From: Burkholderia sp. BCC0322 | GTDB lineage: Bacteria; Pseudomonadota; Gammaproteobacteria; Burkholderiales; Burkholderiaceae | Length of the DNA: 64,000 nt | Assembly: GCF_902833045.1 (NCBI RefSeq) | Contig: NZ_CADFDU010000001.1 | Coordinates: 310,001 to 374,000, forward strand | Direction of reading: 5' to 3' | Shown: positions 43,075 through 60,201 of the stretch, piece by piece | Layout: each line of letters opens with the position of its first letter | Position numbering within the stretch: position 1 is the stretch's first letter | Program-made: the position numbers and the translations under genes | Notes under the pieces: model-generated | Seen by the model: only the letters and a program-made list of their open reading frames with translations | Databases searched by the model: none | Told to the model about the DNA's origin: nothing

Positions 43075-43090
43075 GTTTATGCGCATAAAG
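43075..43090. promoter_or_regulatory. parS site 1
   Basis: GTTTATGCGCATAAAG matches the palindrome GTTTATGCGCATAAAC at 15 of 16 positions. It is the outermost of five sites in the 953-bp non-coding gap 42897-43849. Confidence 0.85.
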
Positions 43091-43196
43091 GTGAGCGGGA
43101 CTCTATCGCGGGGGGATGAATAAAGGTCCCGCACGCCTGATCAATACGAAGAGGGGCGATCTGAAAAGGGCGTCGCCGGTAGCGTCGCAGGCCGGT

Positions 43197-43212
43197 GTTT
43201 ATGCGCATAAAG
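43197..43212. promoter_or_regulatory. parS site 2
   Basis: GTTTATGCGCATAAAG has one mismatch to the palindrome. It lies 122 bp from site 1. Confidence 0.85.
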
Positions 43213-43389
43213 AGCGGGCGATTGCCGGGTAGGGTATCTCGTGATCCACGGCGTGGTGAGTACTGAAATTTCGGCGCGTCGGTGTGCTGCCTGCTCGGTG
43301 TGCTGCCTCGCAAGTAGATCGACGCGCACTGGATTCCGGCGCGGCGCGGTCGGGCGGTGATCCTTCGTCACTCGCCGTCTACGCTCGCG

Positions 43390-43405
43390 GTTTATGCGCA
43401 TAAAC
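43390..43405. promoter_or_regulatory. parS site 3 (perfect)
   Basis: GTTTATGCGCATAAAC is a perfect 16-bp palindrome. As I recall, this is the chromosome-2-type parS of B. cenocepacia, bound by its own ParB. Confidence 0.92.
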
Positions 43406-43552
43406 GTAGCGTCCGGATACCGTGTCGTGTCGACGTACGCTGGCTCAGTGGCATACCTCGACCTGCATGCCCAGCCAGGCGCACCACTCACATCCCACGC
43501 CCAGAAGCACCGCCCCTCCCGGTGCACAATCCAGCGCCACGGTTTCCGCGGC

Positions 43553-43568
43553 GTTTATGCGCACAAAC
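43553..43568. promoter_or_regulatory. parS site 4
   Basis: GTTTATGCGCACAAAC has one mismatch (T to C) to the palindrome. Confidence 0.85.
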
Positions 43569-43734
43569 TCTGCGGCTCTCAGGCAAGACCACCCCATCGG
43601 AGAGAAAGGGTAGTGCCCCGGGATCCTGCGGCAACTCGCTACGCCACGCGTGAAGACTCAACCACCGAGGTTACTCATCGACGTCTCCGGCATCCGCCAC
43701 ACCATCCAATCGAGCCACCGGTCATCGTCGCTTC

Positions 43735-43750
43735 GTTTATGCGCATAAAC
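43735..43750. promoter_or_regulatory. parS site 5 (perfect)
   Basis: GTTTATGCGCATAAAC is perfect and lies 100 bp upstream of parA, just before the likely parA promoter. Confidence 0.92.
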
Positions 43751-43849: not shown

Positions 43850-44512
43850 TTGGCCGCGGAAATCATTGCAGTCACTCAACAAAAAGGTGGCGTCGGCAAA
43901 AGCACGATTGCCATGCACCTCGGTGCCGCGTTCCATGAAAAAGGGAAGCGCGTCCTCGTCATCGACGCAGACCGTCAAAACACACTGGTTCACTGGTCAA
44001 GCGCGTCCGGCGACAGCGACACCGGCATTCCGTTTCCGGTCGTCAACCTGGCCGAAGCCGATGGCCAGATCCATCGCGAGATCAAGAAGTTCATCAACGA
44101 CTACGACATCATCGTCGTAGACTGCCCGCCGTCGATCACCGAAAAGGTATCGGGCGTGGTCCTGCTGGCCGCATCGATTGCCGTGATTCCGACGTCGTCG
44201 TCGCCGGCCGATTACTGGTCGAGTGTCGGGCTGGTCAAACTGATCCAGCAGGCGCAGGTCATGAACGAAGACCTCCGCGCCGTCTTCCTGCTGAACAAGA
44301 CCGAAGAGAAACGCATGCTGACCCGCGAGCTCAAGCGCGCGCTCGAGGAACTCGGCTTCCCGTTGCTGAAGACGCAAATCCCGACCCGAGAGGCGTACAA
44401 ACAGGCGATGGCGCTCGGTCAGACCGTGCTGCAGATGAACGATCGTGGCGGCAAGCTGGCCGCCTCAGAAATTCGCGCATGCGCCGACGAAATCGTCGCC
44501 ATGCTGCCCTGA
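43850..44512 (+). CDS. parA: ParA partition ATPase of the secondary chromosome
   Basis: The 220-residue protein has the deviant Walker A QQKGGVGKST, Walker A' VLVIDADRQN and Walker B IIVVDCPPS. It has no N-terminal HTH, so it is the short ParA form that would not repress as the plasmid type Ia proteins do. The TTG start at 43850 follows AGGAG with good spacing. ParA drives segregation of the ParB-parS complexes on the nucleoid. Confidence 0.95.
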   Translation: MAAEIIAVTQQKGGVGKSTIAMHLGAAFHEKGKRVLVIDADRQNTLVHWSSASGDSDTGIPFPVVNLAEADGQIHREIKKFINDYDIIVVDCPPSITEKVSGVVLLAASIAVIPTSSSPADYWSSVGLVKLIQQAQVMNEDLRAVFLLNKTEEKRMLTRELKRALEELGFPLLKTQIPTREAYKQAMALGQTVLQMNDRGGKLAASEIRACADEIVAMLP

Positions 44513-44528
44513 CTTTATGCGCACAAAG
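44513..44528. promoter_or_regulatory. Degenerate parS-like site between parA and parB
   Basis: CTTTATGCGCACAAAG keeps the TTTATGCGCA core and has three mismatches. It begins right after the parA stop and its last bases merge with the parB ribosome site (AAAGGAG), so ParB binding could affect parB translation or transcription. Confidence 0.6.
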
Positions 44529-44535
44529 GAGTCAC

Positions 44536-45597
44536 ATGAAACCCTCCCAATTTGCCAAAGGATTCCAAGCGCGCCCGGATATCACGACGAGCGAGAAGCG
44601 CACGGCGCTCGATCGACTCAATGCGATCGACGGCATCGTCAAGTCCGAGACGCCCGCTCCGGCACCGGCCCGATCCGCGAAAAAAGACATCGTGCCGCCG
44701 CCCGCTCCCGAATTCACGCTCGATCCGTCGATCGATGAATCGGCACAATATCGCGCGTGGCGTCTCGAGAACCGCTATGCGCCGGGGCAGGTGATCGAGC
44801 TGCCGCTGAAGGCAATCAAGCATAGCCCGTTCAATCCGCGGCACTTCTATCTGAAATCATCGATTGCCGAACTCGCGGTCAACCTCGCGAAGCAAGGGCA
44901 GCAGCAGGCGATCCACGTGATTCCGGACTACGAGAACCCGGGCACGTATTTCGTCAGCGACGGTGGCCGCCGCGTGCGGGCACTGAAGGAAGCGAACAAG
45001 GAATCGGTCAAGGCGACCGTGATCGACGTGCCGATCGGCATCCAGAGCTACAAGCTCGGCTACGATCTCAACGTCCAGCGCGATTCGCAAACGGTGTTCG
45101 ACAACGCCGTCGTGTGGCGCCGCTTCCTCGACGACAAGCATTTCCAGAGCCAGAAGGAGCTCTCCGAGCATCTCGGCCTCGATGAATCGACGGTGGCCGT
45201 CGCGCTGTCGATCGGCAAGCTGCCGGAAGCGATCATGCAGGAAATGGTCGCGCGCCCCGATCGCTTCGGTTCGAACATGGCGTATCAGGTCGGCCGCTAT
45301 CACAATGCGCGCGGCACCGAGGCCACGCTGCGGTTGATCAACAAGATCGTGTCGGACGATCTCAGCACGCGCCAGGTGTCGGACATCGTCAAGGGCCGTG
45401 TCGCGGCGCAAGAAACGCCGAAGGCTGCAGGCCGTCAGCGCTATGCGCAGCGTCTCGAAATCAAGCTCGGCGGCAAGTCGGTCGGCGACCTCAAGTCGTA
45501 TGGCGAAGATCGGATCGAATTGCGCCTGCGCGGTCTCCCAAAGGACAAGCGCGACGCGATCCTCGAGCAGCTCGAGCGGATGCTGTTGTCGGAGTGA
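44536..45597 (+). CDS. parB: ParB partition protein of the secondary chromosome
   Basis: The 353-residue protein has the ParB N domain (FNPRHFYLKSSIAELAVNLAKQG, residues about 97-119), the HTH (KELSEHLGLDESTVAVALSIGK) and a C-terminal dimerisation domain. The CTP-binding motif usually GERRxRA reads GGRRVRA, as in some plasmid-type ParBs. ATG 44536 follows AAAGGAG, 24 bp after parA. It binds parS and spreads. Confidence 0.95.
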   Translation: MKPSQFAKGFQARPDITTSEKRTALDRLNAIDGIVKSETPAPAPARSAKKDIVPPPAPEFTLDPSIDESAQYRAWRLENRYAPGQVIELPLKAIKHSPFNPRHFYLKSSIAELAVNLAKQGQQQAIHVIPDYENPGTYFVSDGGRRVRALKEANKESVKATVIDVPIGIQSYKLGYDLNVQRDSQTVFDNAVVWRRFLDDKHFQSQKELSEHLGLDESTVAVALSIGKLPEAIMQEMVARPDRFGSNMAYQVGRYHNARGTEATLRLINKIVSDDLSTRQVSDIVKGRVAAQETPKAAGRQRYAQRLEIKLGGKSVGDLKSYGEDRIELRLRGLPKDKRDAILEQLERMLLSE

Positions 45598-45686: not shown

Positions 45687-47054
45687 TCAGGCGGCCCGCG
45701 ACTGGTTTAGCGTGAACGACAGCAGGTCGCCGTCCGTCGGCTCGCCCCAGGTCCTCTGGGCCAGCCAGTCGAAAAAGGCCGTCTCGGCCAGTTTGGAATC
45801 GAGGCCGCGCTTGCGCCAGTCATCGCGCAGATGCGTGCCCATCGTCGGCAGCGCCTCCGATTCGAACGACTCGCGCGCCACTTCGCGCTCGGCGTCGCCC
45901 TGCTCTTCGTACAGCACCTTTGCTTCCTTGCGGCGGAACGCCGCAAACTCGCTCAGCAGGCGAGCCTTCAGATCGTCCGGCTGGGCCGCGGCGATCTTCG
46001 GGGACGGCGCGCCGGCAGGCAGCGCGTCGACCGACTCGACCGGCGGCGCATAACCCTTCTTCAGCGCATCCTTGAACAACGCCGGCGCGCTGCGCACCGG
46101 CGGCAGCGTCGTGCTGCGCATCCGCTGCTCGGTCATCTGGAGCGCGGCGCGAATGCGGTTCTCCTCGCTATCCGCATAGAGCGTCTGCGCTTCCTTCAGC
46201 GGGATCCCGAGCTTCACCATCCGGTCGACCAGCGTGCTGTCGAACACGTTCGGGTGCTCATCGAGCGCGAGCATCGGCTGCTTGCGTTCGGTCACGCGGA
46301 ACTGGATCTCCGCGACCCGGCGCCCCTCACGGTGCTCGATCAGCTCGACGAAGATGTTGGTAACCGCGTTGACTTCCGCGATCGCGGGGCGCAGATAGTC
46401 GCGCTTGAAGTACTTGTACTCGCGCTTTGCCTCGTCGCCGGCTTCCGTATCGGGCGTGCCCGACAGGATCGGCCGCCACCACTCCCACGGCTCGCGCATC
46501 GTCAGGTGACTCGGGTTCGTCAGGTAGCGCACACAGATCTCGTACAGCGCGAGTCCGGCGCTGCTGCGCAGCTGGCTCTGGAACTGCAGGCTCAGGCGCG
46601 CATACTGAACCGGGTCGAGCAGCTTCTTCTTGATCTTCGGCGCGAACGAGAATTCGACCCACACGCGGCGGGTGGCCGGATCCTCGAGAATTTCCGCGTC
46701 CGCGATCAGGGTCGAGATCCCCCACTTGCGGCCCGGCTTCTGGCTCGACGTCCCCGTGCTCCATTCGACCTGCACCGACACCATGCGGCGCAGGTGTTCC
46801 TTCACCAGTGCGGTGTCGTTCGAATCGAAGGCGGAGTTGGCGACGATGTCCGACAGCAGTGCGCGATACGTATCGCCCGAGTCGTCGGCCTGCTGCGCCA
46901 CGGCCAGCAGGACATTGAACAGCTTGCGAGTGAGGAGCGTGATCTTGCCGCTCTTCGGCTGAATCGCGATCGCCTCGACGGCCTTCCGCAATTCGGCTGA
47001 ACTGGCACTCACCACATCCACATCGGTTTTCTTGGCGCGCTTCGTCGTGGCCAT
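45687..47054 (-). CDS. repA: Replication initiator RepA (Rep_3 family) of the secondary chromosome
   Basis: The 455-residue protein has two winged-helix domains of the Rep_3 type: ITLLTRKLFNVLLAVAQ near residue 40 and LYEICVRYLTNPS near 190, with YFKRDYLRPAIAEVN. It is larger than most plasmid Rep_3 proteins. It converges with parB, 89 bp apart with GC-rich hairpins between. Upstream of its start lies the iteron array it should bind. It should load the replisome for chromosome 2. Confidence 0.93.
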   Translation of the reverse strand: MATTKRAKKTDVDVVSASSAELRKAVEAIAIQPKSGKITLLTRKLFNVLLAVAQQADDSGDTYRALLSDIVANSAFDSNDTALVKEHLRRMVSVQVEWSTGTSSQKPGRKWGISTLIADAEILEDPATRRVWVEFSFAPKIKKKLLDPVQYARLSLQFQSQLRSSAGLALYEICVRYLTNPSHLTMREPWEWWRPILSGTPDTEAGDEAKREYKYFKRDYLRPAIAEVNAVTNIFVELIEHREGRRVAEIQFRVTERKQPMLALDEHPNVFDSTLVDRMVKLGIPLKEAQTLYADSEENRIRAALQMTEQRMRSTTLPPVRSAPALFKDALKKGYAPPVESVDALPAGAPSPKIAAAQPDDLKARLLSEFAAFRRKEAKVLYEEQGDAEREVARESFESEALPTMGTHLRDDWRKRGLDSKLAETAFFDWLAQRTWGEPTDGDLLSFTLNQSRAA

Positions 47055-47174: not shown

Positions 47175-48482
47175 CCCGAAAACCCTCACCGCTGCGGATT
47201 TGCAGCGTTCCGGACTCGTCCAGACGTGCTGCGGGATGCGCCGATTCACAGAATTTCACCTGTGCGCGACACGTGCGAAATGCGCTCCCGTATCGGCTCA
47301 CCTTTCGATTTGTCGCAATTTTACGACTGCGCGGCTGTGCGTTCGGCACAGGGTTGCGATCCCAGGTCACCGCGCTTCCCCGACGGCCCTCATCGGCCTG
47401 TATGCATGTACAGGCCTGACTCACCGGGAGATCGGGATCGGGTCCGGCGTCCCGAAAGACGCCCGCGAAACCGGCCCGCGCAACCCGATCGGGCCTGCTT
47501 TCGCGGCCCGGGCGCGCATTGTACAGTGCACAAACCGTATCGGGTCCCGAAAATACTCACCTTGAGCACAGTGTGTTCGTTCGTCCCGATATCGACGAAT
47601 GCCCGACACGCGGGGGATTCGCTACCCAAGCCTCCCGAAAACGCTCACCTTACGGAAAAATCGCTGTGCCCCCACAGGCATGCGAGAGGCTCCCGAAAAA
47701 CCTCACCGTAACTGGCTCGGTATCAAAAATCCCAATGCCTTCCGATACTTATGCACAAAAGGCATTTGGCAGTGCGCCCCCAACATCCCCCGAAAAGCCT
47801 CACCTTTCGCTGGAAATCCTTCATACGACAACCGCATGTCGCCCCCCGAAAAATCTCACCTGTGCCAAAAAGGGGCACAGCGAAAACCAGATTTCTTCCA
47901 GCCCTGGCGGGCTTTTCGGCGAATTCAGCCGTGCACAGGTCCCGAAAAGCCTCACCTGTGACCATTTTTCGGGCAAATGCCATTCCCGAAAAGTCTCACC
48001 TGTTGCCTGAATTACAGCCTGTGGTTCGCGCCCCGAAAAATCTCACCTTAACGGGATCCGGCCAGGAAAACCCGGATTTCCCTCCCGAAAAACCTCACCT
48101 TTAGGGCTTCACAGGCCCCCAGGAGCGCTATTGCTGTGCAAAATGGCGTTCGTTTCCCGGAAATCCTCACACCAAACTCCCGTGGAGTCCCGTGAAACCT
48201 CACCTTTCACAAAAACTGCCCAAAAGATGGGCAGAATCGGGGCACGAAGAAGGTCCTGCAAACTCTCACCTATGTCTGCACAGGCAGAAAACTGTGCAGT
48301 CAGGCACAGCGAGGGTTCCGTGGCTGTGAGGCCCCGAAAAGCCTCACCTTTGGGAAATCTCGTGTTTCACTGTGATCCCGAATCCGCTCACGACCTTTCC
48401 CGCAACGGCTCACGCAGCTCCCTGAACCCAATCACGTCAGCTCCCGCAGAAGATCACCTTGGCTCCCGTAAAACTTCACCTT
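47175..48482 (+). repeat. RepA iteron array, 18-bp repeat CCCGAAAAnnCTCACCTT
   Basis: All copies run in the same direction on the plus strand. Strong copies start at 47175, 47546, 47634, 47692, 47789, 47845, 47941, 47985, 48032, 48084 and 48333. Weaker ones start at 47287, 48156, 48189, 48255, 48377, 48399, 48443 and 48465. Spacing is irregular, from 22 to more than 200 bp, but densest at 47634-48101. The spacer of two bases inside the repeat varies most. Confidence 0.9.
47749..47757 (+). promoter_or_regulatory. DnaA box inside the iteron array
   Basis: TTATGCACA fits the TTATNCACA consensus fully. It sits between two strong iterons, so DnaA and RepA may act together. Confidence 0.7.
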
Positions 48483-48645
48483 GCCGGCCGGAAAGCCTTG
48501 CAGCATAAGGCTGTGCCGTGGCGTTAACGTTTTTAACTAAGGGTTCAAGGGTGTTTACTTCTAATACTCTCAAGACATCGGCCGACGAGTTTTCCACAGA
48601 CACCCCAACCCCTGAACACCGACCGGCCATCGGATCCGTGTTCAT

Positions 48646-48728
48646 GTGAAACAAATGCCCAAATTCCGGGCCCACAGGAAAATGCTTGCAACACAAGGAC
48701 TTGGCTGATTTTCTTCGCTTTGTTTCAC
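48646..48728. repeat. Spaced inverted repeat GTGAAACAAA/TTTGTTTCAC
   Basis: Perfect 10-bp arms (48646-48655 and 48719-48728) are separated by 63 bp in the AT-rich part of the origin. Each arm resembles half of the chromosome-1-type parS (TGTTTCAC). It could be an operator for the KfrA-like gene or another origin-binding protein. Confidence 0.5.
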
Positions 48729-48875
48729 GGAAAACTGGGCCACAGTCGTCCAGATTGGCTCACAGACCCGATTTCTGTGGACAGAGATGTAAATTCGCAA
48801 CGTTGTGCCGAAACAAGTATCAATAGATACGTATTTCGTTATTATTGACACATTTCAATCTCCGTGAGCACAGCG

Positions 48876-50057
48876 ATGACCCTGGACGAAATACGCCAAG
48901 CCATTCGGGATGAACTGGAATCGCTGCGCGCGAACGGTGCACGGCGGCAGGAATTGTCCCTGCACGCGTGCAAGCGATTGTTTTTCGATCTCGGCATCAG
49001 GCCATCGGCTGCCAACGTCCGCGATCTCACCCAGACCGGCAGCGCCAGCGATATTCCGAAAGACATCGATCATTTCTGGGAACGCATCCGTTCCGCCTCG
49101 AAGATCAGGCTCGACGGTGCCGCGATCCCGAAAGCCGTCGAGGAAAAGGCGGGAGCGTTGCTTGGCGCGCTCTATGAAGAAGCGTTGAAAGCCGCGCGGG
49201 ACAGCCTGGATGGCGATCGCGAGCAGGTTCGCGCCGGCATTGCCCATGCCGAACAGCGATTGCGCGACGCAATCGTCCGCCAGGAGACGCTCGAAGGCGC
49301 GCTCGCGCGTGGCGAAGCGAAAAACGAGCAGTTGCAGGCTCGCGTAACCGAACTCGAGGTCCAGCTCGCGTCGCAAACGACACACGGTTCGGCCAGCGAA
49401 GCGACGTTGCTCACCACAGTCGCTCGACTGGAAAAGGAACTGGCTGCAGCCGCCGGCCGCATCGAAGCCGAGCAGGCGCAGAACGCGACGCTGCGTGATC
49501 GCATCGATGCGCTGCAGGCCGAACTGCAGCAGCGCACCGAACACTATGCGCAACAAATCAAGGACGCCGTGGCCGAAGCCGAGCGCCGCGTCAAGCCGAT
49601 GCTCGTCGAGCTGGATTCGTTACGCAGCATGGCGTCGTCTTATCAGAGCGGTTTGCGCGACGTTCAGCGCAAGGAGTTCGACTTCCTGCAGCAACTGAGT
49701 TCGGCCAAGGCGCGTGCCGATCGGCTCGAAGAACAGTTGCGCAGCCAGGCCGATGAACTGGAACGTGCGACACGCGATGTGAGTTCGTTGCGCGCGAGCC
49801 GCGGCATGAATCCGGAAATCGCCGCGCTGATCCGCCGCCTGGCCGATGCCGGGCAACTGGATGCGGAGGCGTTTGCCGCGATCGGCACCTCGCTGGATCA
49901 GGAGATTTCGGTGCCGGCCCGATGTCCGCATTGCGACGGCGAGCCGGAGCTTTCACACAGCGAAGAAGGTTTCGAAGTGGCCTGTCCCGAGTGCGAGCAC
50001 GCCTCAGGGGCATGGCCGTCCCGATTCGAAGCCGTCGCGCGCTTTGCGCGCACGTGA
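48876..50057 (+). CDS. KfrA-like DNA-binding coiled-coil protein with C-terminal zinc ribbon
   Basis: The protein is about 393 residues from ATG 48876; GTG 48864 would add four. The N-terminal 100 residues match the KfrA_N DNA-binding region (MTLDEIRQAIRDELESLRANG, cited as residues 1-20 region). A long alanine- and glutamate-rich coiled coil covers about 100-335. The tail has two Cys pairs (CPHC and CPEC, near 357 and 377), a zinc ribbon. KfrA proteins are plasmid-borne and help stability or repress their own gene. Its position next to the origin suggests a similar job. Confidence 0.85.
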   Translation: MTLDEIRQAIRDELESLRANGARRQELSLHACKRLFFDLGIRPSAANVRDLTQTGSASDIPKDIDHFWERIRSASKIRLDGAAIPKAVEEKAGALLGALYEEALKAARDSLDGDREQVRAGIAHAEQRLRDAIVRQETLEGALARGEAKNEQLQARVTELEVQLASQTTHGSASEATLLTTVARLEKELAAAAGRIEAEQAQNATLRDRIDALQAELQQRTEHYAQQIKDAVAEAERRVKPMLVELDSLRSMASSYQSGLRDVQRKEFDFLQQLSSAKARADRLEEQLRSQADELERATRDVSSLRASRGMNPEIAALIRRLADAGQLDAEAFAAIGTSLDQEISVPARCPHCDGEPELSHSEEGFEVACPECEHASGAWPSRFEAVARFART

Positions 50058-50103: not shown

Positions 50104-50121
50104 GAGGTGAGATTTTTCGGG
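50104..50121 (-). repeat. RepA-iteron-like site outside the origin, A
   Basis: On the minus strand this reads CCCGAAAAATCTCACCTC, one base from the array consensus. It lies in the gap between the KfrA-like gene and the recombinase-like gene, in inverted orientation to the array. Confidence 0.8.
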
Positions 50122-50193
50122 AGCAGTGAAACGGTGAGGCTGTGCCACACAAGGCTGCTCACGGGTCGCTTCGTGTGAGCAGCCGTTTGGCGA

Positions 50194-51213
50194 TCAGTGA
50201 GTTTCGTCGCTGTCGGACGCGTCACCATTGCTGTTGGCCAAACCGTCGCGCCAGGTTTTCCATGCGCGATGCAGGCGGTTCGACGAGATCGGCCGCATGA
50301 AGCCCAGCCATTTGCCGACCCGTTCGGGCGGCACGTCGTGCTCGAACAGTTCAGCCGCATAGGTATTGCGCAGCGTTTGCGGGCTCGCGCGCGCGGTGCG
50401 CGACGACGTGAGCCCGGCGGATTCGACGATCGCGTCGATCGCGCGCAGCATCGTCGCCTTGTGCATCGGCCGCCCGGCATGGGAGGCCGGAAACACGAGT
50501 TCCCCCGGAATGTCCTGGCGCTTGCGCTCGGTGAGCCAGGCTTCCAGCAGGGCGATCGCGAACGATGCGAGGTGGGCTTCGCGAGCGAAATCCGGATGCG
50601 TCGACGCGATCTGCAGCGATGTTCCACTCGTATTGATGCAACTAATCGTGAGCGCTCGAGCTTCGCCGGTTTTAATGCCGGCACCGAGAAACGCGGCGAC
50701 GAGCGCACGGTCGCGCCGCTCTTTCCAGTAAGCAGAACCGGATACGCCGATCGGTGAAAACAGGTACGCGAGCAACGTCGCGCGCTCGGCAGGCGTGAGG
50801 AAACCGGTCGGTTCGTTGTCGCGCGCCTTGCGCCAGTTCGCTTCGCCATCCTGAGCAATGAACCGGGCCGGGTTGGTCGACGCGTATTCGGTGCGCCGGA
50901 TGTGATCGAGCACGCGCTCGATCAGCCGCAAGTAGCGCATCCGCTGGGTTTTCCGGATCGGCAGCTCTGCGACGAAATTCGCGATGGTTGCGGTATCGAC
51001 CGTTGCCAGATTCTTCTGGTGTGCGCGCATCCACGTGAGGAACGCGCCCCATTGCGCGCGATAGACGTCGGCCGACGAGCGGCGATAGTCCTGCATGGCG
51101 AGCCATGCATCGAATGCGGCTTCCGGCGAGACGATCCAGTCGGATGCGCCACGGTCGAACAGATCTGTTTCTTCCGGGCGTGCGAGGGTGTCGGGCGAGA
51201 CGGGAAGAGACAT
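50194..51213 (-). CDS. Tyrosine-recombinase-fold protein lacking catalytic residues
   Basis: The 339-residue protein has a phage-integrase SAM-like N-terminal domain and a C-terminal catalytic-type domain. Where active enzymes read GLRxSEL this one reads AGIKTGEA (about residue 174), so the first Arg is Lys. The HxLRH box is QTLRN (near 282): only the Arg is kept. The LGH box is LGF, and no Tyr is found where the nucleophile should be (SNRLHRAW near 312). It is thus unlikely to cut DNA and may act as an origin- or dif-binding factor. Confidence 0.85.
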   Translation of the reverse strand: MSLPVSPDTLARPEETDLFDRGASDWIVSPEAAFDAWLAMQDYRRSSADVYRAQWGAFLTWMRAHQKNLATVDTATIANFVAELPIRKTQRMRYLRLIERVLDHIRRTEYASTNPARFIAQDGEANWRKARDNEPTGFLTPAERATLLAYLFSPIGVSGSAYWKERRDRALVAAFLGAGIKTGEARALTISCINTSGTSLQIASTHPDFAREAHLASFAIALLEAWLTERKRQDIPGELVFPASHAGRPMHKATMLRAIDAIVESAGLTSSRTARASPQTLRNTYAAELFEHDVPPERVGKWLGFMRPISSNRLHRAWKTWRDGLANSNGDASDSDETH

Positions 51214-51316
51214 GTGACTTACTCCGTTAGTTGCGTATATGGTAGCCCTTTCCGCAACGTCTCGGGCAGCAAGAGGCTGGGTGAGGCCGCCTTAACGCGG
51301 CGGCCCGGGCGAGGAG

Positions 51317-51697
51317 TCAGTCGCCCCATGCCTTGGACGGGCGGTGAACGCGCTCGTGCGGCGCCGTGTCATTCGACGCGGTTGACGCGGCTTCATATGC
51401 GAGAACCGCGAACGAAAAAACGGCGGGCAGCGCATTCGAGCGCCCGAAGTCGATCGGATCGTCCGTTTCGGGAAACGTCATATCCAACTGCCGTTCGAAC
51501 AATTGACGCATGCCGGCCTCGTGCCGGCTGGCAAAGCCGAGATCGGCGAGTGCCTCGGCCTCGATGGCGTGCAGCAGGCGCCACGTCAGCGGGACGCGCT
51601 GGTGGATGTAGCGCCCGGCGATATGCCGGACGATCTGCTCGAGGTCGTGCGCGGCAGCCTTGAAGCTGAGCGCGGCCAAATTTTGTTCTTCTGTCAT
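51317..51697 (-). CDS. Conserved hypothetical protein, 126 residues
   Basis: The protein starts MTEEQNLAALSFKAAAHDLEQI and is mostly helical, with no signal peptide. I do not recognise a family. ATG 51697 follows a GGAGC ribosome site. It lies 103 bp upstream of the recombinase-like gene on the same strand, so it may share its transcript. Confidence 0.65.
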   Translation of the reverse strand: MTEEQNLAALSFKAAAHDLEQIVRHIAGRYIHQRVPLTWRLLHAIEAEALADLGFASRHEAGMRQLFERQLDMTFPETDDPIDFGRSNALPAVFSFAVLAYEAASTASNDTAPHERVHRPSKAWGD

Positions 51698-51837
51698 TGC
51701 AGGCTCCTGTCGACCGGGCGGGCGCCTCGGTGCGCCGGCTCCGGCCCATGCATGGCGGAATGTCCGTATACTGTACAAACATACAGTGTTTTCCGCAACT
51801 GGCCTGCAATTGGCCCTTCGGCCAGCTATACGCGCCG

Positions 51838-52449
51838 TCAGCGATGTATCACGATCAGCAGTGCACGCGCTTCGGCCTTGCCGGGATTGCGGATTGCGTG
51901 CGGCTCATCGGCTGGATAGCGCGCGGTGTCGCCCACCTTCAGGCGCCGGCTGGCTGCGGCGGCTTCGATTTCCATCGCGCCCTGCAGCACGGTGAGGTGC
52001 TCGCGCGTGCCGGGCTCGTGTGCGTTCGATATCAATGCGCCGCCGCCCGGCAGCGTCAGCTCGTACCACTCGAACTTGCCGGCGAGGTCGATCGGGCCCC
52101 ACACGCGCAACTGGTAGCGGCCGTCATGGCCGGCGAGCGTCGGGATGTCGTGCGGGCCGTCTACTCGAATGGTTTCGGGCGCCTTCGGCTGCGAGAACAG
52201 CTCGTCGAGCGTGATGCCGAGCGCGTTCGTCAGCCGCCACGCAACGGCGATCGTCGGGTTGGCCTTGTCGCGTTCGATCTCGGAGAGCATCGATTTCGAT
52301 ACGCCGGCCGCGCGCGACAGGTCGTCAAGCGTCAGCTTGCGTTCGTTGCGCAGCCGCTGGATCTGCTCGCCGACACGCGGCGGCGTGGCGGCCGGCGGTT
52401 GCGGTGCGGCGCTGGCAGGCGTGCGCCGCGAACCGGAGGAACTTGCCAT
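51838..52449 (-). CDS. XRE-cupin transcriptional regulator
   Basis: The 203-residue protein has an N-terminal HTH_3 domain (LTLDDLSRAAGVSKSMLSEI near residue 40) and a C-terminal cupin (GGGALISNAHEPGTREHLTVL, residues about 134-154, EIEAAAASRRLKVGD). It is divergent from kbl-tdh and so likely controls threonine or glycine use. Two half-sites in the shared gap fit its operator. Confidence 0.9.
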   Translation of the reverse strand: MASSSGSRRTPASAAPQPPAATPPRVGEQIQRLRNERKLTLDDLSRAAGVSKSMLSEIERDKANPTIAVAWRLTNALGITLDELFSQPKAPETIRVDGPHDIPTLAGHDGRYQLRVWGPIDLAGKFEWYELTLPGGGALISNAHEPGTREHLTVLQGAMEIEAAAASRRLKVGDTARYPADEPHAIRNPGKAEARALLIVIHR

Positions 52450-52472
52450 TTGGATTCCGTTCGCTTAGAGTT

Positions 52473-52501
52473 GTTCGGTATTTCGAATTCTAGTTCGGAA
52501 T
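52473..52501. promoter_or_regulatory. Candidate operator of the XRE-cupin regulator
   Basis: Two direct copies GTTCGGTAT (52473-52481) and GTTCGGAAT (52493-52501) are 20 bp apart, two helical turns, in the divergent promoter gap between the regulator and kbl. Confidence 0.5.
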
Positions 52502-52610
52502 ATCGGATAAATGCGGTCAACCGAACGACCGACTATAACAGTAGCAGGCCGTTGCGCCGCCGCCACGAGTGGCGCGTTGCGGAATGCGAAACCCTGTCAG
52601 GAGCTTTGCG

Positions 52611-53810
<1,200 letters not shown>

Positions 53811-53823
53811 AGGAGGCGCGACC

Positions 53824-54852
53824 ATGAAAGCACTGGCAAAGCTCGAACGCGGCCCCGGCCTCACGCTCACGCGCGTGAAGCGCCCCGAAGTCGGTCACAA
53901 CGACGTGCTGATCAAGATCCGCCGCACGGCGATCTGCGGCACCGACATCCATATCTGGAAGTGGGACGACTGGGCGCAAAAGACGATTCCCGTGCCGATG
54001 CACGTCGGTCACGAGTATGTCGGCGAGATCGTCGAGATGGGGCAGGAAGTGCGCGGTTTCGCGATCGGCGATCGCGTGTCCGGCGAAGGCCACATCACCT
54101 GCGGTTTCTGCCGCAACTGTCGCGCGGGGCGCCGCCATCTGTGCCGCAACACGGTCGGCGTCGGCGTGAACCGCGAAGGCGCGTTCGCCGAGTATCTGGC
54201 GATTCCTGCGTTCAACGCGTTCAAGATTCCGCCGGAGATCTCCGACGATCTCGCCTCGATCTTCGATCCGTTCGGCAATGCGACGCACACGGCGCTGTCG
54301 TTCAACCTCGTCGGCGAAGACGTGCTGATCACCGGTGCCGGCCCGATCGGCATCATGGCCGTCGCGATCGCGAAGCACGTCGGCGCGCGCAACGTCGTCA
54401 TCACCGACATCAACGACTACCGGCTGGAACTCGCGCGCAAGATGGGCGCGACGCGTGCGGTCAACGTCGCGCGCGAGTCGCTGCGCGACGTGATGTCCGA
54501 CCTGCACATGACCGAAGGCTTCGACGTCGGCCTCGAAATGTCGGGCGTGCCGAGCGCGTTCACGAGCATGCTCGAGGCGATGAACCACGGCGGCAAGGTC
54601 GCGCTGCTCGGCATTCCGCCCGCGCAGACGGCGATCGACTGGAACCAGGTGATCTTCAAGGGGCTCGAGATCAAGGGCATCTACGGTCGCGAGATGTTCG
54701 AGACCTGGTACAAGATGGTCGCGATGCTGCAGAGCGGCCTCGATCTGTCGCCGATCATCACGCATCGCTTTGCAGCCGACGATTACGAGAAAGGCTTCGC
54801 CGCGATGCTGTCTGGTGAAAGCGGCAAGGTGATTCTCGACTGGACAGCCTGA
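53824..54852 (+). CDS. tdh: L-threonine 3-dehydrogenase
   Basis: The 342-residue zinc-dependent MDR enzyme oxidises threonine to 2-amino-3-ketobutyrate. Catalytic zinc site [13 protein letters not shown] (near residue 38), structural zinc cysteines [15 protein letters not shown] (near 95-109), and the NAD-binding [16 protein letters not shown]. It forms an operon with kbl; a GGAGG ribosome site precedes ATG 53824. Confidence 0.97.
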
Positions 54853-54943
54853 GTGCTGAAGGGGCGGTGCGGCCTGTTTGCCGCCTGCCCCGTTTTGGTT
54901 TTACGTCTGCGTCTTCGCAGTCGAAACACGTGAATCCGGGCTC

Positions 54944-54961
54944 AAGGTGAGACTATTCGGG
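54944..54961 (-). repeat. RepA-iteron-like site outside the origin, B
   Basis: The minus strand reads CCCGAATAGTCTCACCTT, close to the iteron consensus. It lies in the 396-bp gap 54853-55248, which has no gene; a weak GC-rich hairpin after tdh (54857-54890) may be a terminator, and scattered GATCGCAC/ATCGGTG motifs are seen. Confidence 0.75.
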
Positions 54962-55248
54962 AGCTGTGAGTGTGCGCCGAATCGCGACACGATCGCACAC
55001 CGGTGACCTGCAATCGCACGTTCACTTCACCTGTAGGCAGTCGCCGGGCTTTCCGCCAGCACGCCGTTCGGCACCTGCTCCCCCTCTTCCGGGCACTTCC
55101 CTCCTGGCTTGCCGCGTGATCGTCCGCGACGCGCGCCATGCGATGCCGTGCCGAACCGCGCCATCAAGCGTGAGCCTTCACGCCTCGTTGCGACTCACTC
55201 ATGCGAGAAGCGATCGACATCGACAGACATCGATCGGTGCGCTGACCG

Positions 55249-55665
55249 CTACTTGATCCGTTCACCATTCGACCCTCGCGGGTCGAGTTGAAGACTCAAC
55301 ACGACGAGCCAGCGCTTCGGGCACCGCGGCGCGATGTCGGCCGGATCGCCCTGCGCGCCGGGAGCGGTGACGAACCCGTGCTGCGCCGCGTATTGATACG
55401 CGCGCAACGCATCCGCTTGCAGCCAGAAGCTGACGAGCGCGCACGTTACGAAGCGGAACAGCAACACCGTCGCGGCATCCGGCGCGAAGCCGGCCATGAC
55501 CAGCAGGCTTTCGAACGCGAACGCCAGCGCTTGGGCGACCGCGATCGTGAGAATCGTCAGCTTCAAGACCCCGCGCAGCCGCCGCGCCGCGCGCAAGCGC
55601 GCCTGCCGCACGTCGAGCCGGGTGTGATCGTCGCCGCGCTCGCGCTTCGGCGCCTCTTGTTTCAT
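55249..55665 (-). CDS. Small membrane protein, 138 residues, unknown function
   Basis: The protein has a charged N terminus and two hydrophobic segments near residues 36-58 (LTILTIAVAQALAFAFESLL) and 65-85. No family is recognised. ATG 55665 overlaps the GNAT stop by 4 bp (ATGA), so it is co-translated with that gene. Confidence 0.65.
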   Translation of the reverse strand: MKQEAPKRERGDDHTRLDVRQARLRAARRLRGVLKLTILTIAVAQALAFAFESLLVMAGFAPDAATVLLFRFVTCALVSFWLQADALRAYQYAAQHGFVTAPGAQGDPADIAPRCPKRWLVVLSLQLDPRGSNGERIK

Positions 55666-56300
55666 GATGCCGCACCCACATGCCGCGCAACGTCGAACTG
55701 TGTCGTATCGCAGGCAACGATGCGCTCGTTCGCGACGCTGACGGATTTGCACAGGATCGCGCTGTCGTAGTTGTGTCCCGGAAAGCGCATCACGTCGAGT
55801 GGCTGAAATCCTTCGCGACGATAGAAGTCGATGAGCCGGACCGCCGCGTACGGCGCGTCGAGTGCGAGATGCGTCGCGCCGCGCGCAGCGGCCCGCCGTT
55901 GCGCGAACGCGAGCAGCGAACGGCCGATGCCGCGATCCTGCCAGACGGGATCGACGGCCAGTTGGCCGAGTGTCGCGACGTGCCGGCTGCGGTACGGATC
56001 GCAGCGGGAATCCGGATCGTGCGAACGCATCGTCATCGTCGCGACCAGGTGTGCATTGCCGAGCGCGACGAAGCACTCGCCGGTGAGCACGCGTTCGCGT
56101 GTCGCCGAGGCCGGCTGATCGACGCACGGGCAGTTGAAGCCCAATGCGCCGAGCGGCGCAAACGCGCGATGCAGCAGCGCGGTCAACGTGTCGTACGAAT
56201 CGTTGCGCGGGTCGAAGCGCCGCACGACGACGCGGCCGTCGAGCCGCTTCGCATAAGCCGCATAGGCGCGCGCGGGGCGCGCGGATTCCGGTCGCTGCAT
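55662..56300 (-). CDS. GNAT-family N-acetyltransferase
   Basis: The 212-residue protein has a GNAT fold with the acetyl-CoA-binding motif QDRGIGRSLLAFAQRRAAARG and the preceding strand ATLGQLAVDPVW. The C terminus (GHNYDSAILCKS) is typical. The acceptor is unknown. ATG 56300 has an AAAGGAC ribosome site. Confidence 0.87.
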   Translation of the reverse strand: MQRPESARPARAYAAYAKRLDGRVVVRRFDPRNDSYDTLTALLHRAFAPLGALGFNCPCVDQPASATRERVLTGECFVALGNAHLVATMTMRSHDPDSRCDPYRSRHVATLGQLAVDPVWQDRGIGRSLLAFAQRRAAARGATHLALDAPYAAVRLIDFYRREGFQPLDVMRFPGHNYDSAILCKSVSVANERIVACDTTQFDVARHVGAAS

Positions 56301-56447
56301 GATGTCCTTTCGCCCAGACAGGGTGACCGAAGTGTAGTGAGCGTCGCGCGTCCGCTTCAAGAAAAAATGTCGTAAACGTGGCGGGCCGCGGCGCGCGGCC
56401 AGCGCGCGATTCATCCCTTTCGCCGACAGGGCTATTTCATGCGGGTG

Positions 56448-56476
56448 TTGACGATGGAGAACGATCGTTCTACCTT
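56448..56476 (+). promoter_or_regulatory. Promoter with palindromic TetR operator
   Basis: A -35 TTGACG (56448-56453) and a -10 TACCTT (56471-56476) are 17 bp apart. Between them is the perfect 14-bp palindrome AGAACGATCGTTCT (56458-56471), a typical TetR-family operator. The regulator gene starts 6 bp after the -10, so transcripts would be almost leaderless unless a start lies upstream; autorepression is likely. Confidence 0.7.
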
Positions 56477-56482
56477 AAACCC

Positions 56483-57088
56483 ATGAACACACCTCACGAC
56501 TCCTCCGGCGAACCGGGCGTTCGCGACCGGCTGCTCGATGCAGCCGAAGCGCTGATCTATTCGGGCGGCATCCATGCAACCGGCGTCGATGCGATCGTCA
56601 AGCGATCCGGCGCGGCACGAAAGAGCTTTTATTCGCATTTCGAATCGAAAGAGGCGCTGGTGGTCGCCGCGCTCGAACGCCGCGACGAGCGCTGGATGCG
56701 CTGGTTCGTCGACGCAACGCTGGCGCGCGGCAAGGCGCCGCGCGTGCAGTTGCTCGGCATGTTCGACGTGCTGCGCGACTGGTTCGGGCAGCCCGACTTT
56801 CATGGCTGCGCTTTCCTGAACGCGTCGGGCGAGATTCCCGACGCCGACGATCCCGTGCGCGTCGTCGCGCGTATGCACAAGGCGCGTCTGCTGGCATTCG
56901 TGCGCGAGCGGTTCGATGCGTATGCCGACGAAACGGGCATCGAGCGCCGCGGGCTCGCGCGCATTGCGCGTCAGTGGCTCGTGCTGATCGACGGCGCGAT
57001 CGGCGTGGCGCTCGTCAGCGGCGATGCAAACGCCGCGCGCGATGCACGCGCGACAGCCGAACTGCTGCTCGACACCGTTTCGCGGTAG
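56483..57088 (+). CDS. TetR-family regulator
   Basis: The 201-residue protein has a TetR HTH (GIHATGVDAIVKRSGAARKS and FYSHFESKEALVVAAL) and a ligand domain of the TetR_C type (FHGCAFLNASGEIPD). That GCAFLNA motif is typical of regulators of small-molecule stress genes. It is followed by the NTF2-like gene, probably its target, and is autoregulated through the palindrome just upstream. Confidence 0.9.
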   Translation: MNTPHDSSGEPGVRDRLLDAAEALIYSGGIHATGVDAIVKRSGAARKSFYSHFESKEALVVAALERRDERWMRWFVDATLARGKAPRVQLLGMFDVLRDWFGQPDFHGCAFLNASGEIPDADDPVRVVARMHKARLLAFVRERFDAYADETGIERRGLARIARQWLVLIDGAIGVALVSGDANAARDARATAELLLDTVSR

Positions 57089-57151
57089 TCGAAGCAGCGA
57101 ATCCGAACCGGCCGCGGTTGTCCGCGGCTACAACCTGAACAGGAGCAACTC

Positions 57152-57631
57152 ATGTCCGCTTCCCCCGAAGTCCGTCCGCCCGTTCCGCCCTTCACGCTCG
57201 AAACGGCACGCCAGAAGGTGCGCGCCGCCGAGGACGGGTGGAATACGCGCGACCCGCAGCGCGTGTCGCTCGCCTATACGCCGCAAAGCCGATGGCGCAA
57301 CCGTGCGGAATTCGTGACCGGCCGCGACGAGATCGTCGGGCTGCTGCAGCGCAAGTGGACGCGCGAGCTCGACTACCGGCTGATCAAGGAACTGTGGGCG
57401 TTCGACGGCAATCGCATCGCGGTGCGCTTTGCGTACGAATGGCATGACGATGCAGGCAACTGGTTCCGTTCGTACGGCAACGAAAACTGGGAGTTCGATG
57501 AAAACGGGCTGATGGCGCATCGTCACGCGTGCATCAACGACCTGCCGATTCGCGAACAGGATCGTCTCTTTCACTGGCCGCTCGGCCGTCGTCCGGACGA
57601 TCATCCGGGGCTGTCCGATCTCGGGCTGTGA
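57152..57631 (+). CDS. NTF2-like protein (DUF1348 family)
   Basis: The 159-residue soluble protein fits DUF1348: [42 protein letters not shown], residues about 51-71, and [19 protein letters not shown]. These NTF2-fold proteins are often found beside TetR regulators; the reaction is unknown. It lies 64 bp after the tetR gene with an AGGAG site. Confidence 0.88.
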
Positions 57632-57677
57632 CGCGCGCGTCGACTCGACGGATTGGTGAACGCATCACCGCGATTCA

Positions 57678-57695
57678 ACGGTGAGGAAATTCGGG
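57678..57695 (-). repeat. RepA-iteron-like site outside the origin, C1
   Basis: The minus strand reads CCCGAATTTCCTCACCGT. It lies 31 bp from a better copy (C2) in the 416-bp gap 57632-58047, which holds no gene. Confidence 0.65.
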
Positions 57696-57708
57696 AGCCA
57701 GTGTGCCG

Positions 57709-57726
57709 AAGGTGAGATTTTTCGGG
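57709..57726 (-). repeat. RepA-iteron-like site outside the origin, C2 (full consensus)
   Basis: The minus strand reads CCCGAAAAATCTCACCTT, a full match to the array consensus, about 9 kb from the array and inverted to it. Confidence 0.85.
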
Positions 57727-57858
57727 ACGAGGTGAAACGTCGCGTCGGACTGTGTGCTTCGAGCCGCTCGATGCGGCATCGTATCGGGCCAGGCGCACAG
57801 GCCGCACACGTCGACGTCGTGCGATGCACGTATCGGTGTGCTTCACCGCGTGATGCAT

Positions 57859-57933
57859 CTCACCGATCGCACAGGGCCGGCAGTGGATTGACGATCGGTG
57901 TGCGTGCGCGCGATGTGCAACTCACCGATCGTG
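57859..57933. repeat. CTCACCGATCG motif cluster
   Basis: CTCACCGATCG occurs at 57859-57869 and 57923-57933, with the inverse CGATCGGTG at 57892-57900 and a related TATCGGTGTG at 57831-57840. The CTCACC part equals the second half of the iteron. It may be a further binding motif or chance. Confidence 0.45.
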
Positions 57934-58047
57934 TCGACGTCAATGACGGATAGCGCGAGTCGTGTGCGTGGCGGGGCGACGTTGCCCACCGCTCGACTTC
58001 ACCGTGCGGGCGCTACCCGGCGCGCGCAATCACGCCGGGCGTGATCG

Positions 58048-59133
58048 TCAGCCCGCGATCCGCGCGGCGATCGCCTCACCTACTTCCTGCGTCCCCGCGT
58101 TGCCGCCGAGGTCGCGCGTATGTGGCCCGGCGCGCAGCACGTCCTCGATTGCGGCGACGATCGCATCGTGCGCTTCGCGTTCGCGGCCCACGCCGTTGCC
58201 GAGGAAGTCGAGCATCAAGGCCGCCGACCAGATCATCGCGACCGGGTTCGCGATGCACTGCCCCGCGATGTCGGGCGCGGAGCCGTGCACGGGTTCGAAC
58301 AGCGACGGAAATTTGCGATCGGGATTCAGGTTCGCCGAGGGCGCGATGCCGATCGTGCCCGTGCAGGCCGGCCCGAGATCCGACAGGATGTCGCCGAACA
58401 GGTTCGACGCGACGACGACGTCGAAGCGGTCAGGCTGCAGCACGAAGCGCGCGCATAGAATGTCGATGTGCTGCTTGTCGACGGCGATGTCGGGATAGCG
58501 TTCGGCCATCTCGGCCGTGCGCGCGTCCCACCACGGCATGCTGATCGCGATGCCGTTGCTCTTCGTCGCGACGGTGAGGCGCTTCGCGCGCCGCTGTGCG
58601 AGGTCGAACGCGAACTTCAGCACGCGCTCGGTGCCGTGGCGCGTGAAGATCGACTGCTGCATCACGATTTCGCGCTCGGTGCCTTCGAACATCGTGCCGC
58701 CGACCGACGAATATTCGCCCTCGGTGTTCTCGCGCACGATCATGAAGTCGATGTCGCCCGCGCGGCGGCCGGCGAGCGGCGACGGTACGCCGTCGAACAG
58801 GCGTGCGGGCCGCAGGTTGATGTACTGGTCGAATTCGCGGCGGAATTTCAGCAGCGAGCCCCACAGCGAAATGTGATCGGGCACCGTCGCCGGCCAGCCG
58901 ACCGCGCCGAACAGGATCGCGTCCATGCCCGACAACTGCGCCTTCCAGTCGTCCGGCATCATCTTGCCGTGCTGCGCGTAGTAGTCGCAGCTCGCCCAGT
59001 CGACCTGGACGAAGTCGAAGCGGATGCCGAAGCGCGCGGTCACGGCATCGAGTGCGCGCAGGCCCTCGGGCATCACTTCACGGCCGATCCCGTCGCCGGG
59101 GATCACGGCAATTCTGTAGGTCTTGTCGGTCAT
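58048..59133 (-). CDS. ttuC: Tartrate/D-malate dehydrogenase
   Basis: The 361-residue enzyme of the isocitrate/isopropylmalate dehydrogenase family oxidatively decarboxylates D-malate or tartrate. It has IAVIPGDGIGREVMPEG, MIVRENTEGEYSSVGG and the metal region SNLFGDILSDLG; the C-terminal FEPVHGSAPDIAG completes the NAD site. It is divergent from a LysR gene. ttuC and dmlA are very similar, so the substrate is not certain. Confidence 0.93.
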   Translation of the reverse strand: MTDKTYRIAVIPGDGIGREVMPEGLRALDAVTARFGIRFDFVQVDWASCDYYAQHGKMMPDDWKAQLSGMDAILFGAVGWPATVPDHISLWGSLLKFRREFDQYINLRPARLFDGVPSPLAGRRAGDIDFMIVRENTEGEYSSVGGTMFEGTEREIVMQQSIFTRHGTERVLKFAFDLAQRRAKRLTVATKSNGIAISMPWWDARTAEMAERYPDIAVDKQHIDILCARFVLQPDRFDVVVASNLFGDILSDLGPACTGTIGIAPSANLNPDRKFPSLFEPVHGSAPDIAGQCIANPVAMIWSAALMLDFLGNGVGREREAHDAIVAAIEDVLRAGPHTRDLGGNAGTQEVGEAIAARIAG

Positions 59134-59210
59134 GCAAAGCTCCTTGGCTGGTGGGCCGGCCGCGGGGTGAGGCAGCGGCGCGTCACGTCATTCTATTTAT
59201 TTCCATCCGG

Positions 59211-59234
59211 ATTAAAATCGCACTAAAGGTTAAT
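59211..59234. promoter_or_regulatory. Candidate LysR binding site between ttuC and its regulator
   Basis: ATTAA at 59211-59215 and TTAAT at 59230-59234 form an interrupted palindrome in the 117-bp divergent gap, consistent with LysR-type sites. Confidence 0.4.
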
Positions 59235-59250
59235 CGACTTTCCACGAATC

Positions 59251-60174
59251 GTGAACAAATCGCCGAATCTCGACGACCTGCGCGTGTTCAGCCTGGTCGT
59301 CCGCCTGACCAGCTTCAGCGCGGCCGCCGAGCAGCTCGCGGTATCGCCCGCCTACGTCAGCAAGCGCATCGCGTTGCTCGAGGCGCAGCTCGGCACGCGC
59401 CTGCTGCATCGTTCGACGCGCCGCGTGACGGTCACGGAAGCCGGCGAACGCGTGTACGCGCGCGCCGAGAAGATCCTCGACGACGTCGATCATCTCGTCG
59501 AGGACGTATCGACCACGCGCACGGTGCCGCGCGGCACGCTGCGCATATCGAGCAGCTTCGGCTTCGGCCGGCACGTCGTCGCGCCGGCGTTGCTCGACTT
59601 CACCTCGCGCTATCCGCAGTTGAACGTGCGGCTCGATCTGTTCGACCGGCTCGTCGATGTCGCGGGCGAAGGCTACGACCTCGATGTGCGCATCGGCGAC
59701 GAGATCGCCGATCACCTGATCGCGCGCCGCCTCGCCGCGAATTACCGCGTGCTGTGTGCATCGCCCGACTATCTTGCACGGCGCGGCACGCCACGCTCGC
59801 TCGCGGATCTCGCGTCGCACGACTGTCTTGCGATCAAGGAGCGCGATCACCCGTTCGGCGTGTGGCGGCTGAACGTGCGCGGCGAAACGGCCACTGTGAA
59901 GGTCGGCGGCGCGCTGTCGACGAACCATGGCGAGGTGGCCGTGCAGTGGGCGCTGGCCGGCCGCGGAATCGTGTTGCGCTCGATCTGGGAAGCCGCGCCG
60001 CTGATCGAACGCGGCGCATTGTGTCGCGTGCTGCCGGATGCAATCCAGCCCGCGAACATCTGGGCCGTGTATCCGGAGCGCGTTGCGGCGTCGGCGAAGG
60101 TGCGCGTCTGCGTGGATTTTCTGGTGGAGACGCTGGCCGGTTTGAATGCCGCCGCGGGTGACGAGACGGCCTGA
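59251..60174 (+). CDS. LysR-family regulator (DmlR-like)
   Basis: The 307-residue protein has an N-terminal LysR HTH (FSAAAEQLAVSPAYVSKRIALLE) and a C-terminal effector domain with GYDLDVRIGDEIADHLIARR, typical of the CrgA/DmlR group. It is divergent from the tartrate/D-malate dehydrogenase, which it probably activates. Start is GTG 59251. Confidence 0.92.
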   Translation: MNKSPNLDDLRVFSLVVRLTSFSAAAEQLAVSPAYVSKRIALLEAQLGTRLLHRSTRRVTVTEAGERVYARAEKILDDVDHLVEDVSTTRTVPRGTLRISSSFGFGRHVVAPALLDFTSRYPQLNVRLDLFDRLVDVAGEGYDLDVRIGDEIADHLIARRLAANYRVLCASPDYLARRGTPRSLADLASHDCLAIKERDHPFGVWRLNVRGETATVKVGGALSTNHGEVAVQWALAGRGIVLRSIWEAAPLIERGALCRVLPDAIQPANIWAVYPERVAASAKVRVCVDFLVETLAGLNAAAGDETA

Positions 60175-60183
60175 AACCGGCTA

Positions 60184-60201
60184 AAGGTGAGCTTTTACGG
60201 G
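60184..60201 (-). repeat. RepA-iteron-like site outside the origin, D
   Basis: The minus strand reads CCCGTAAAAGCTCACCTT. It lies 10 bp after the LysR stop, about 11.7 kb from the array, and is inverted to it. Confidence 0.75.

Follow-up and report, generated by a model that had tools for sequence, protein, structure and literature searches.

Initiator sites outside an origin are known from several replicons. Escherichia coli carries the DnaA sites datA and DARS on its main chromosome away from the origin, and datA doubles soon after firing, while in plasmid P1 the iteron block incA lies beside the origin and pairs with it to restrain firing. The incC iterons of plasmid F (named in PMC11711613) are likewise a block beside the origin that pairs with it to restrain firing. 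In Vibrio cholerae, the account of Baek and Chattoraj (2014, PMC3937223) has external RctB sites near the origin of chromosome II (chrII) inhibiting chrII replication. RctB has also been described as looping the chrII origin by way of inhibitory sites. Here we report on a 64,000-nucleotide stretch of Burkholderia sp. BCC0322 (contig NZ_CADFDU010000001.1, positions 310,001 to 374,000; the window), which by its gene, domain and motif content is the setting of the origin of chromosome 2 (c2), and on 18-bp sequences beyond the origin that match its iterons in inverted orientation. These 18-mers are probably external sites for the c2 initiator RepA and, with a remote cluster of such sites, probably make up a regulatory network that is conserved around the origin of c2.

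The Burkholderia sites can be set beside each of these systems. As in V. cholerae, copies of the initiator motif that are conserved and exceed the chance number lie away from the origin of the same replicon, and the likeness to RctB sites drawn in an earlier note on this sequence was apt in the light of PMC3937223 as far as its available parts go. The motif differs, however, and the Burkholderia initiator is a Rep3-domain protein; its sites begin 1.6 kb beyond the array, occur singly or in pairs, are inverted in the genus and are also present on the third replicon. Inhibition was demonstrated for the RctB sites and is suggested by analogy for those of Burkholderia. The datA and DARS loci share with them a position distant from the origin, but the Burkholderia sites are of a plasmid-type RepA, and whereas incC and incA are compact and adjacent to the origin, the Burkholderia sites are spread over ~18 kb plus a remote block. 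With crtS of V. cholerae they share a possible role as an initiator site by which one replicon could set the order of firing relative to another; crtS lies on chromosome 1 and is unlike iterons, whereas the foreign sites of Burkholderia are iteron-like and lie on chromosome 3 (c3) (PMC11711613, PMC6090056). The Burkholderia sites are not of the crtS kind, as no conserved site was found on the primary chromosome with this motif, the only one searched, and the c3 sites match the c2 iteron.

For B. cenocepacia, Du et al. (2016, PMC4948915) gave the c2 consensus ctCCCGAAAAacCTCACCTtt and the c3 consensus tCCCATAAacggntACCtnt, which are the motifs used here. The available parts of that paper note extra iterons and a second cluster, which a table legend places 140 kb from the c2 origin. 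Its S1 Table marks reversed iterons close to the origin, and some of the inverted sites may already figure there. Relative to those parts, the conservation and pairing of the sites, the Pat-like gene context and the c2-type sites near the c3 origin are additions. The literature searched, which covered few subscription journals, contained no description of conserved c2 iterons that are distal, inverted or situated on c3.

Results

Iteron-like sites outside the origin array

We scanned the window with an 18-mer of 16 specified and 2 free bases, counting mismatches over the 16. The scan returned 22 matches with at most 3 mismatches against 0.20 expected, a number reached in 0 of 100 shuffles. Sixteen of them form the array on the plus strand, five lie outside it on the minus strand, and one is at 33831 on the plus strand. 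The outer sites share with the origin iterons the core CCCGAAAA-NN-CTCACC, and binding of c2 RepA to the outer sites would be the simplest way to read them.

All five outer sites were found where the earlier note had placed them, on the strand opposite to the array (Table 1). Its statement that none lies left of the origin was literally incorrect, given the 2-mismatch site at 33831..33848. That match was not counted because it is inside a gene (squalene/phytoene-synthase-like), as is the copy in the relative G001; we regard it as a coding coincidence outside the network. The remote cluster of the relatives, however, is mostly on the left arm. The earlier note gave a reach of 11.7 kb for the outer sites; in relatives the row does not stop at the window edge, and G001 has a pair ~17.5 kb past the array.

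Conservation across the genus

RepA was located in 61 genomes of the genus. The 61 c2 regions scanned came from 56 of these genomes, four named records and the window, and species may recur between the named records and the other genomes; the c2 regions of G016, G046, G047, G063 and G075 were absent from the right-side scan. Far loci may be missed because eleven of the genome regions and the window extend less than 20 kb right of the array. Whole-genome statements rest on the relatives' genomes.

Right of the array there were 288 matches with at most 2 mismatches in 1.10 Mb, and 287 of them were inverted. Out of 12 permuted consensus patterns, eleven gave no match and one gave a single match, while the reversed pattern gave none. 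Most of the sites fall at loci that recur at about the same distance past the array, namely A at +1.6 kb (1.6-1.8), B at +6.5 kb, C at +8.2-9.4 kb, D at +10.7-12 kb and E at +14-18 kb; outside these loci, 13 sites in 7 regions were found at up to 3 mismatches. Locus A was present in 61 of 61 regions at up to 3 mismatches and in 58 at up to 2, and its genus consensus has a degenerate partner 24 bp closer to the array.

Mean conservation of site and flank was 0.95 and 0.76 at locus A (n = 61), 0.96 and 0.71 at B (n = 44), 0.96 and 0.61 at C (n = 54), 0.98 and 0.67 at D (n = 53) and 0.97 and 0.84 at E (n = 35), with the two free positions scoring lower. At loci A and D the site was the most conserved 18-base window of a 318-bp stretch; at C the sole window scoring higher was its own partner site, and at B the site was outscored solely by the end of the preceding gene. 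Departures from the consensus that are specific to a locus were kept, for example a T at position 5 of the D site and one at position 7 of the B site. The recurring loci, the scores above those of the flanks and the constant presence of locus A bear out conservation in related genomes, on which the earlier note had made its case depend.

The sites could instead be relics of a larger ancestral array, or chance matches preserved by general conservation of the gaps, and the gap of locus E is indeed well conserved as a whole. We consider this extremely improbable given that the sites exceed their non-coding flanks in A to D and on c3 while the free bases drift, and that the permuted controls were near zero.

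Many of the sites are paired. Among 99 close pairs, 35 were spaced by 22 bp, 21 by 24 bp and 43 by 29-34 bp, with none at 25-28 bp. These spacings, ~2 or 3 helical turns, are such as helical phasing would give.

Other genera and reduced genomes

At E ≤1e-60, c2 RepA was found in 9 of 25 sampled genera including Burkholderia, in three of the nine at only 37-41% identity. There were 39 genomes outside the genus with a c2 RepA of at least 78% identity, and 20 regions from five other genera were fetched. The array motif was the same in all 20. All 17 non-reduced regions had locus A when up to 3 mismatches were allowed, and 16 had it at up to 2, next to the gene of a KfrA-like protein only 48-62% identical. 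Three reduced genomes (1.1-1.2 Mb; L179, L180 and L181) kept a c2-type RepA and the array on a c2 contig of 61-72 kb; the KfrA-like gene and the inverted sites were absent from the 20 kb read in each.

Several observations weigh against a conserved set of external RepA sites. The site scores are floored at ~0.81 because entry into the alignments required a match with at most 3 mismatches, and the alignment of locus A, found in every region, is without drop-outs, which B to E have. Locus E shows no clear footprint because other non-coding windows of its gap equal or exceed the site (0.99, 0.96). The ratio of 287 to 1 does not represent 287 independent events, as the orientation bias rests on about five commonly inherited loci, and the site in G059, at +7.1 kb, breaks the inversion rule. 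Locus A has just a 3-mismatch match in G074, G061 and G067, and in other genera the sites more than 3 kb past the array were inverted in 24 cases and not in 13; inversion is therefore firm for locus A and for the genus but not universal. The loss of sites in the reduced genomes is weak evidence because the KfrA-like gene was lost together with site A and AT drift also erodes the array.

The mixed orientation of these far sites is what would be expected if the outer sites merely absorbed RepA, their position and orientation being mechanically irrelevant. Numbers also suit such plain titration, as c2 of G001 (C6) has 14 array and 14 other matches at up to 2 mismatches. Even so, recurring places, fixed pair spacings and inversion throughout the genus exceed what titration needs, which makes it unlikely as the whole explanation.

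A second c2 cluster around a Pat-like gene

The remote cluster of c2 sites lies 114-271 kb from the array, as calculated from coordinates with contigs treated as circular where needed, on the left arm in 13 regions and on the right in two (G007 and G068). The 15 regions, from 13 genus genomes, W01 and W03, were chosen because hits marked the cluster; clusters in the hit lists of W02, G006, G009, G022, G023, G024, G047 and G070 fall outside this gene-context set. In 15 of 15 regions a Pat-like gene, with CoA-binding, succinyl-CoA-ligase-like and GNAT domains, is flanked by facing sites, three upstream pointing in and one to eight downstream (at up to 3 mismatches) pointing back. The flanking sites persist in the 6 of these 15 regions whose Pat-like protein shows no more than 71-77% identity.

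The distance from the first to the second upstream site was 300-302 bp in 12 regions, 313 bp in two and 323 bp in one, approximately whole helical turns, and the sequence between is poorly conserved. Downstream sites are spaced by multiples of ~23 bp in several genomes. The Pat-like gene was not found in six regions of the other-genus genomes G125, G119 and G169. Within the genus, an acetyltransferase gene of this kind enclosed by RepA-type sites can be seen at L048:7896-10259 and in 14 further regions. DnaA acetylation in E. coli is reportedly linked with Pat/YfiQ (PMC4971506), and as a neighbour of the sites the Pat-like gene is intriguing, no more.

In 12 of 15 regions the three upstream sites lie ~190-600 bp before the Pat-like gene, and in the other three ~940-1550 bp before it. 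Such a placement might be expected if RepA regulated the transcription of nearby genes, the KfrA-like and Pat-like ones among them, or organised the DNA around them, rather than controlling replication. The sites near the origin do not follow this pattern. In the window all five are intergenic, each between predicted genes, as the earlier note had said, but gap types differ, and by a crude gene caller the 287 inverted sites of the relatives and the window fell into convergent gaps (152), tandem gaps (67), divergent gaps (37), predicted genes (11) and region edges (20). Coding sequence makes up 73% of the right side, and convergent gaps are 37% of gap length yet hold more than half of the sites. 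Divergent gaps, where promoters would be, hold far fewer sites than convergent ones, and locus A is 3' of the end of the KfrA-like gene and not before its start. We therefore think a transcriptional role in place of a replicative one quite improbable.

Distribution over the genome

Eight genomes (G001, G009, G016, G022, G024, G025, G047 and G070) were searched throughout at up to 2 mismatches. Out of 249 hits, 219 were on c2, 16 on c3 (~8.8 Mb) and 14 elsewhere (~29 Mb), while the reversed pattern gave 11 over all replicons. The motif is thus not spread at the chance rate that the earlier note had named as an argument against its proposal. Nine non-recurrent hits off c2 and c3 are about at the level of the reversed control across all eight genomes.

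The remaining 5 of the 14 are one recurrent match, which overlaps a predicted gene end in a conserved block (83-98% identity in 20 other genomes). It is the sole recurrent match off c2 and c3, and we rejected it as crtS-like. A trigger of that kind on chromosome 1 (c1), an element that the earlier note had brought up, is not supported; with this motif, the only one searched, no conserved c1 site was found.

Sites oriented with the replication fork, whether polar pause sites or a strand-biased motif such as KOPS with its G-rich strand on the leading strand, would share one orientation relative to the fork, as the right-arm sites of the genus do. This reading is very unlikely, however, because the remote cluster has both orientations in each of the 15 regions, the far sites of other genera are mixed and matches to the motif are few elsewhere in the genome.

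c2-type sites near the c3 origin

The third chromosome has its own RepA (34% identity to c2 RepA) and its own iterons. A c2-type site was nevertheless present past the c3 array in 42 of 51 c3 regions, in 38 of them at up to 2 mismatches, at 553-722 bp in 41 regions and at ~2 kb in G075. These sites all point the same way; with at most 2 mismatches, 39 were plus and none minus. When up to 3 mismatches are allowed, two sites spaced by 32-35 bp can be seen in 25 of the 42 site-bearing regions. Of 20 scans with permuted controls, 19 found no match and one found 2. When 41 of the regions were aligned, G075 being omitted, the site scored 0.93, the position 33 bp on, for which no selection had been made, 0.92, and the flanks 0.48-0.84 per 30-bp bin. 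The alignment also shows, ahead of the c3-origin pair, one more conserved element that contains CTCACC (L035, ~38 bp upstream of 4374, and its relatives).

Nine c3 regions had no c2-type site near the origin (G022, G047, G070, G064, G067, G014, G054, G076 and G077); the c3 regions of G016, G004 and G067 are short. In G022 and G047 a perfect site lies ~18.5 kb from the c3 rep gene, G070 has only a 2-mismatch site ~85 kb off and G064 a 1-mismatch site ~74 kb off, and the c3 contig of G067 has none at up to 1 mismatch. Another site on c3 is an identical 18-mer shared by five genomes, which were selected because they carry it; the convergent-type gaps in which it sits are orthologous, but have diverged around it. 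Among the eight genomes searched throughout, it was on c3 in three (G001, G016 and G024).

The converse was not seen. There were no c3-type iterons at up to 2 mismatches in 61 c2 regions, and when six genomes were searched with the c3-type motif at up to 1 mismatch, 3 of 66 hits were off c3, none common to genomes, while the reversed control gave 7.

Copies of c3's own motif with 1 mismatch, 26 or 52 bp apart, lie ~230-260 kb from the c3 rep gene (G071 C3:1293526, 1293552 and 1293604; G024 C3:580573 and 580625). The layout is perhaps c2-like, and single matches may be chance, given the 7 hits of the reversed control in six genomes. A c3 RepA on the chromosome-sized contig L087 (G075 C2, 4.85 Mb) perhaps reflects fusion with another chromosome.

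The origin region of the window

The features of the origin region are collected in Table 1. The direct-repeat array and the adjoining initiator with Rep3_N (3.6e-12) and Rep3_C (7.8e-10) domains are hallmarks of a Rep3 iteron origin, and both are present in the window; RepA also weakly matches the R6K PI protein in the PDB (E 0.0069). An AT-rich melting region and a DnaA box would be further features of such an origin. An AT-rich stretch adjoins the array. DnaA boxes with one mismatch are at 48590 and 47749, and the window holds 5 in total against 2.5 expected, with at least 5 in 9 of 100 shuffles. A phage-integrase-family gene (50194-51213) lies immediately past locus A. There were no Rfam hits at gathering score within 42500-64000, and the closest plasmid-collection records for the window are from B. 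arboris and B. cenocepacia, at 89-90% identity.

Table 1. Origin-region features and outer iteron-like sites, in window coordinates.
Feature	Position	Strand	Mismatches	Remarks
parS2-like 16-mers, five	43075..43750	+	≤1	presumably the ParB sites of chromosome 2
ParA-like ATPase gene	43850..44512	+
ParB-like gene	44479..45597	+
c2 initiator RepA	45687..47054	-		455 aa; Rep3_N and Rep3_C domains
Origin iteron array	47175..48482	+	≤3	16 matches to CCCGAAAANNCTCACCTT
AT-rich stretch	48508..48860			adjoins array; AT 0.37-0.62 per 60-base bin; DnaA-box-like 9-mer at 48590
KfrA-like gene	48864..50057	+		coiled-coil DNA-binding protein; between array and locus A
Locus A	50104..50121	-	1	just 3' of the KfrA-like gene end
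Locus B	54944..54961	-	1	3' of zinc-dehydrogenase (Tdh-like) gene
Locus C, partner	57678..57695	-	3	31 bp from main site
Locus C, main site	57709..57726	-	0
Locus D	60184..60201	-	1	convergent gap

Discussion

By analogy with the RctB sites of V. cholerae, the putative external RepA sites most likely restrain c2. RepA bound to the array would bridge in cis, by looping or handcuffing, to RepA bound at the outer sites that face it, and the outer sites would also titrate RepA. Inversion would suit pairing across a plectonemic supercoil, in which the arms are antiparallel and inverted sites would meet in the same sense. Supercoil bridging would also be favoured by the facing blocks formed by the array with locus A and by the sites upstream and downstream of the Pat-like gene. 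At the fork speed of ~33 kb/min given by Du et al. (PMC4948915), the near sites (within 18 kb) would double in about half a minute after c2 firing and the remote cluster in ~3.5-8 minutes. Such doubling could block re-firing until RepA accumulates, as is thought for datA and for the external RctB sites of V. cholerae.

At the c3 origin, c2-type sites would allow c2 RepA to delay the firing of c3 or to read it out, and c3 is perhaps coupled to c2 through them. It is conceivable, and we put it forward tentatively, that this amounts to a one-way cascade timer, in which binding of c2 RepA to the c3-origin sites would tie the firing of c3 to the state of c2, c3 RepA being without a conserved site on c2. 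According to the available parts of Du et al., origin foci double on c2 nearly always before c3 (PMC4948915), and the c3 sites are a candidate cause of this order. In a 2026 survey, as far as its accessible text goes, third replicons of Burkholderia strains finish ahead of the chromosome (PMC13342612); any restraint of c3 therefore does not make c3 end late. If true, the timer would couple two chromosomes of plasmid descent in one direction only, through iteron-type sites and not through an element of the crtS type, and the separation of c2 origins before c3 origins could result from it.

How chromosomes are coordinated in bacteria other than Vibrio and Agrobacterium remains an open question. 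The accessible text of the 2026 survey names the finding of such timers as a task (PMC13342612), and the available parts of Du et al. leave the link between c1 and c2 unexplained (PMC4948915). The present result offers a small set of precisely located, conserved sites on c2 and c3 that allows a direct test by removal. Burkholderia would seem to provide a second example of a plasmid-type initiator acquiring control sites outside the origin as its replicon became a chromosome, and the conservation of these sites hints at wiring that keeps the copying of the chromosomes in step.

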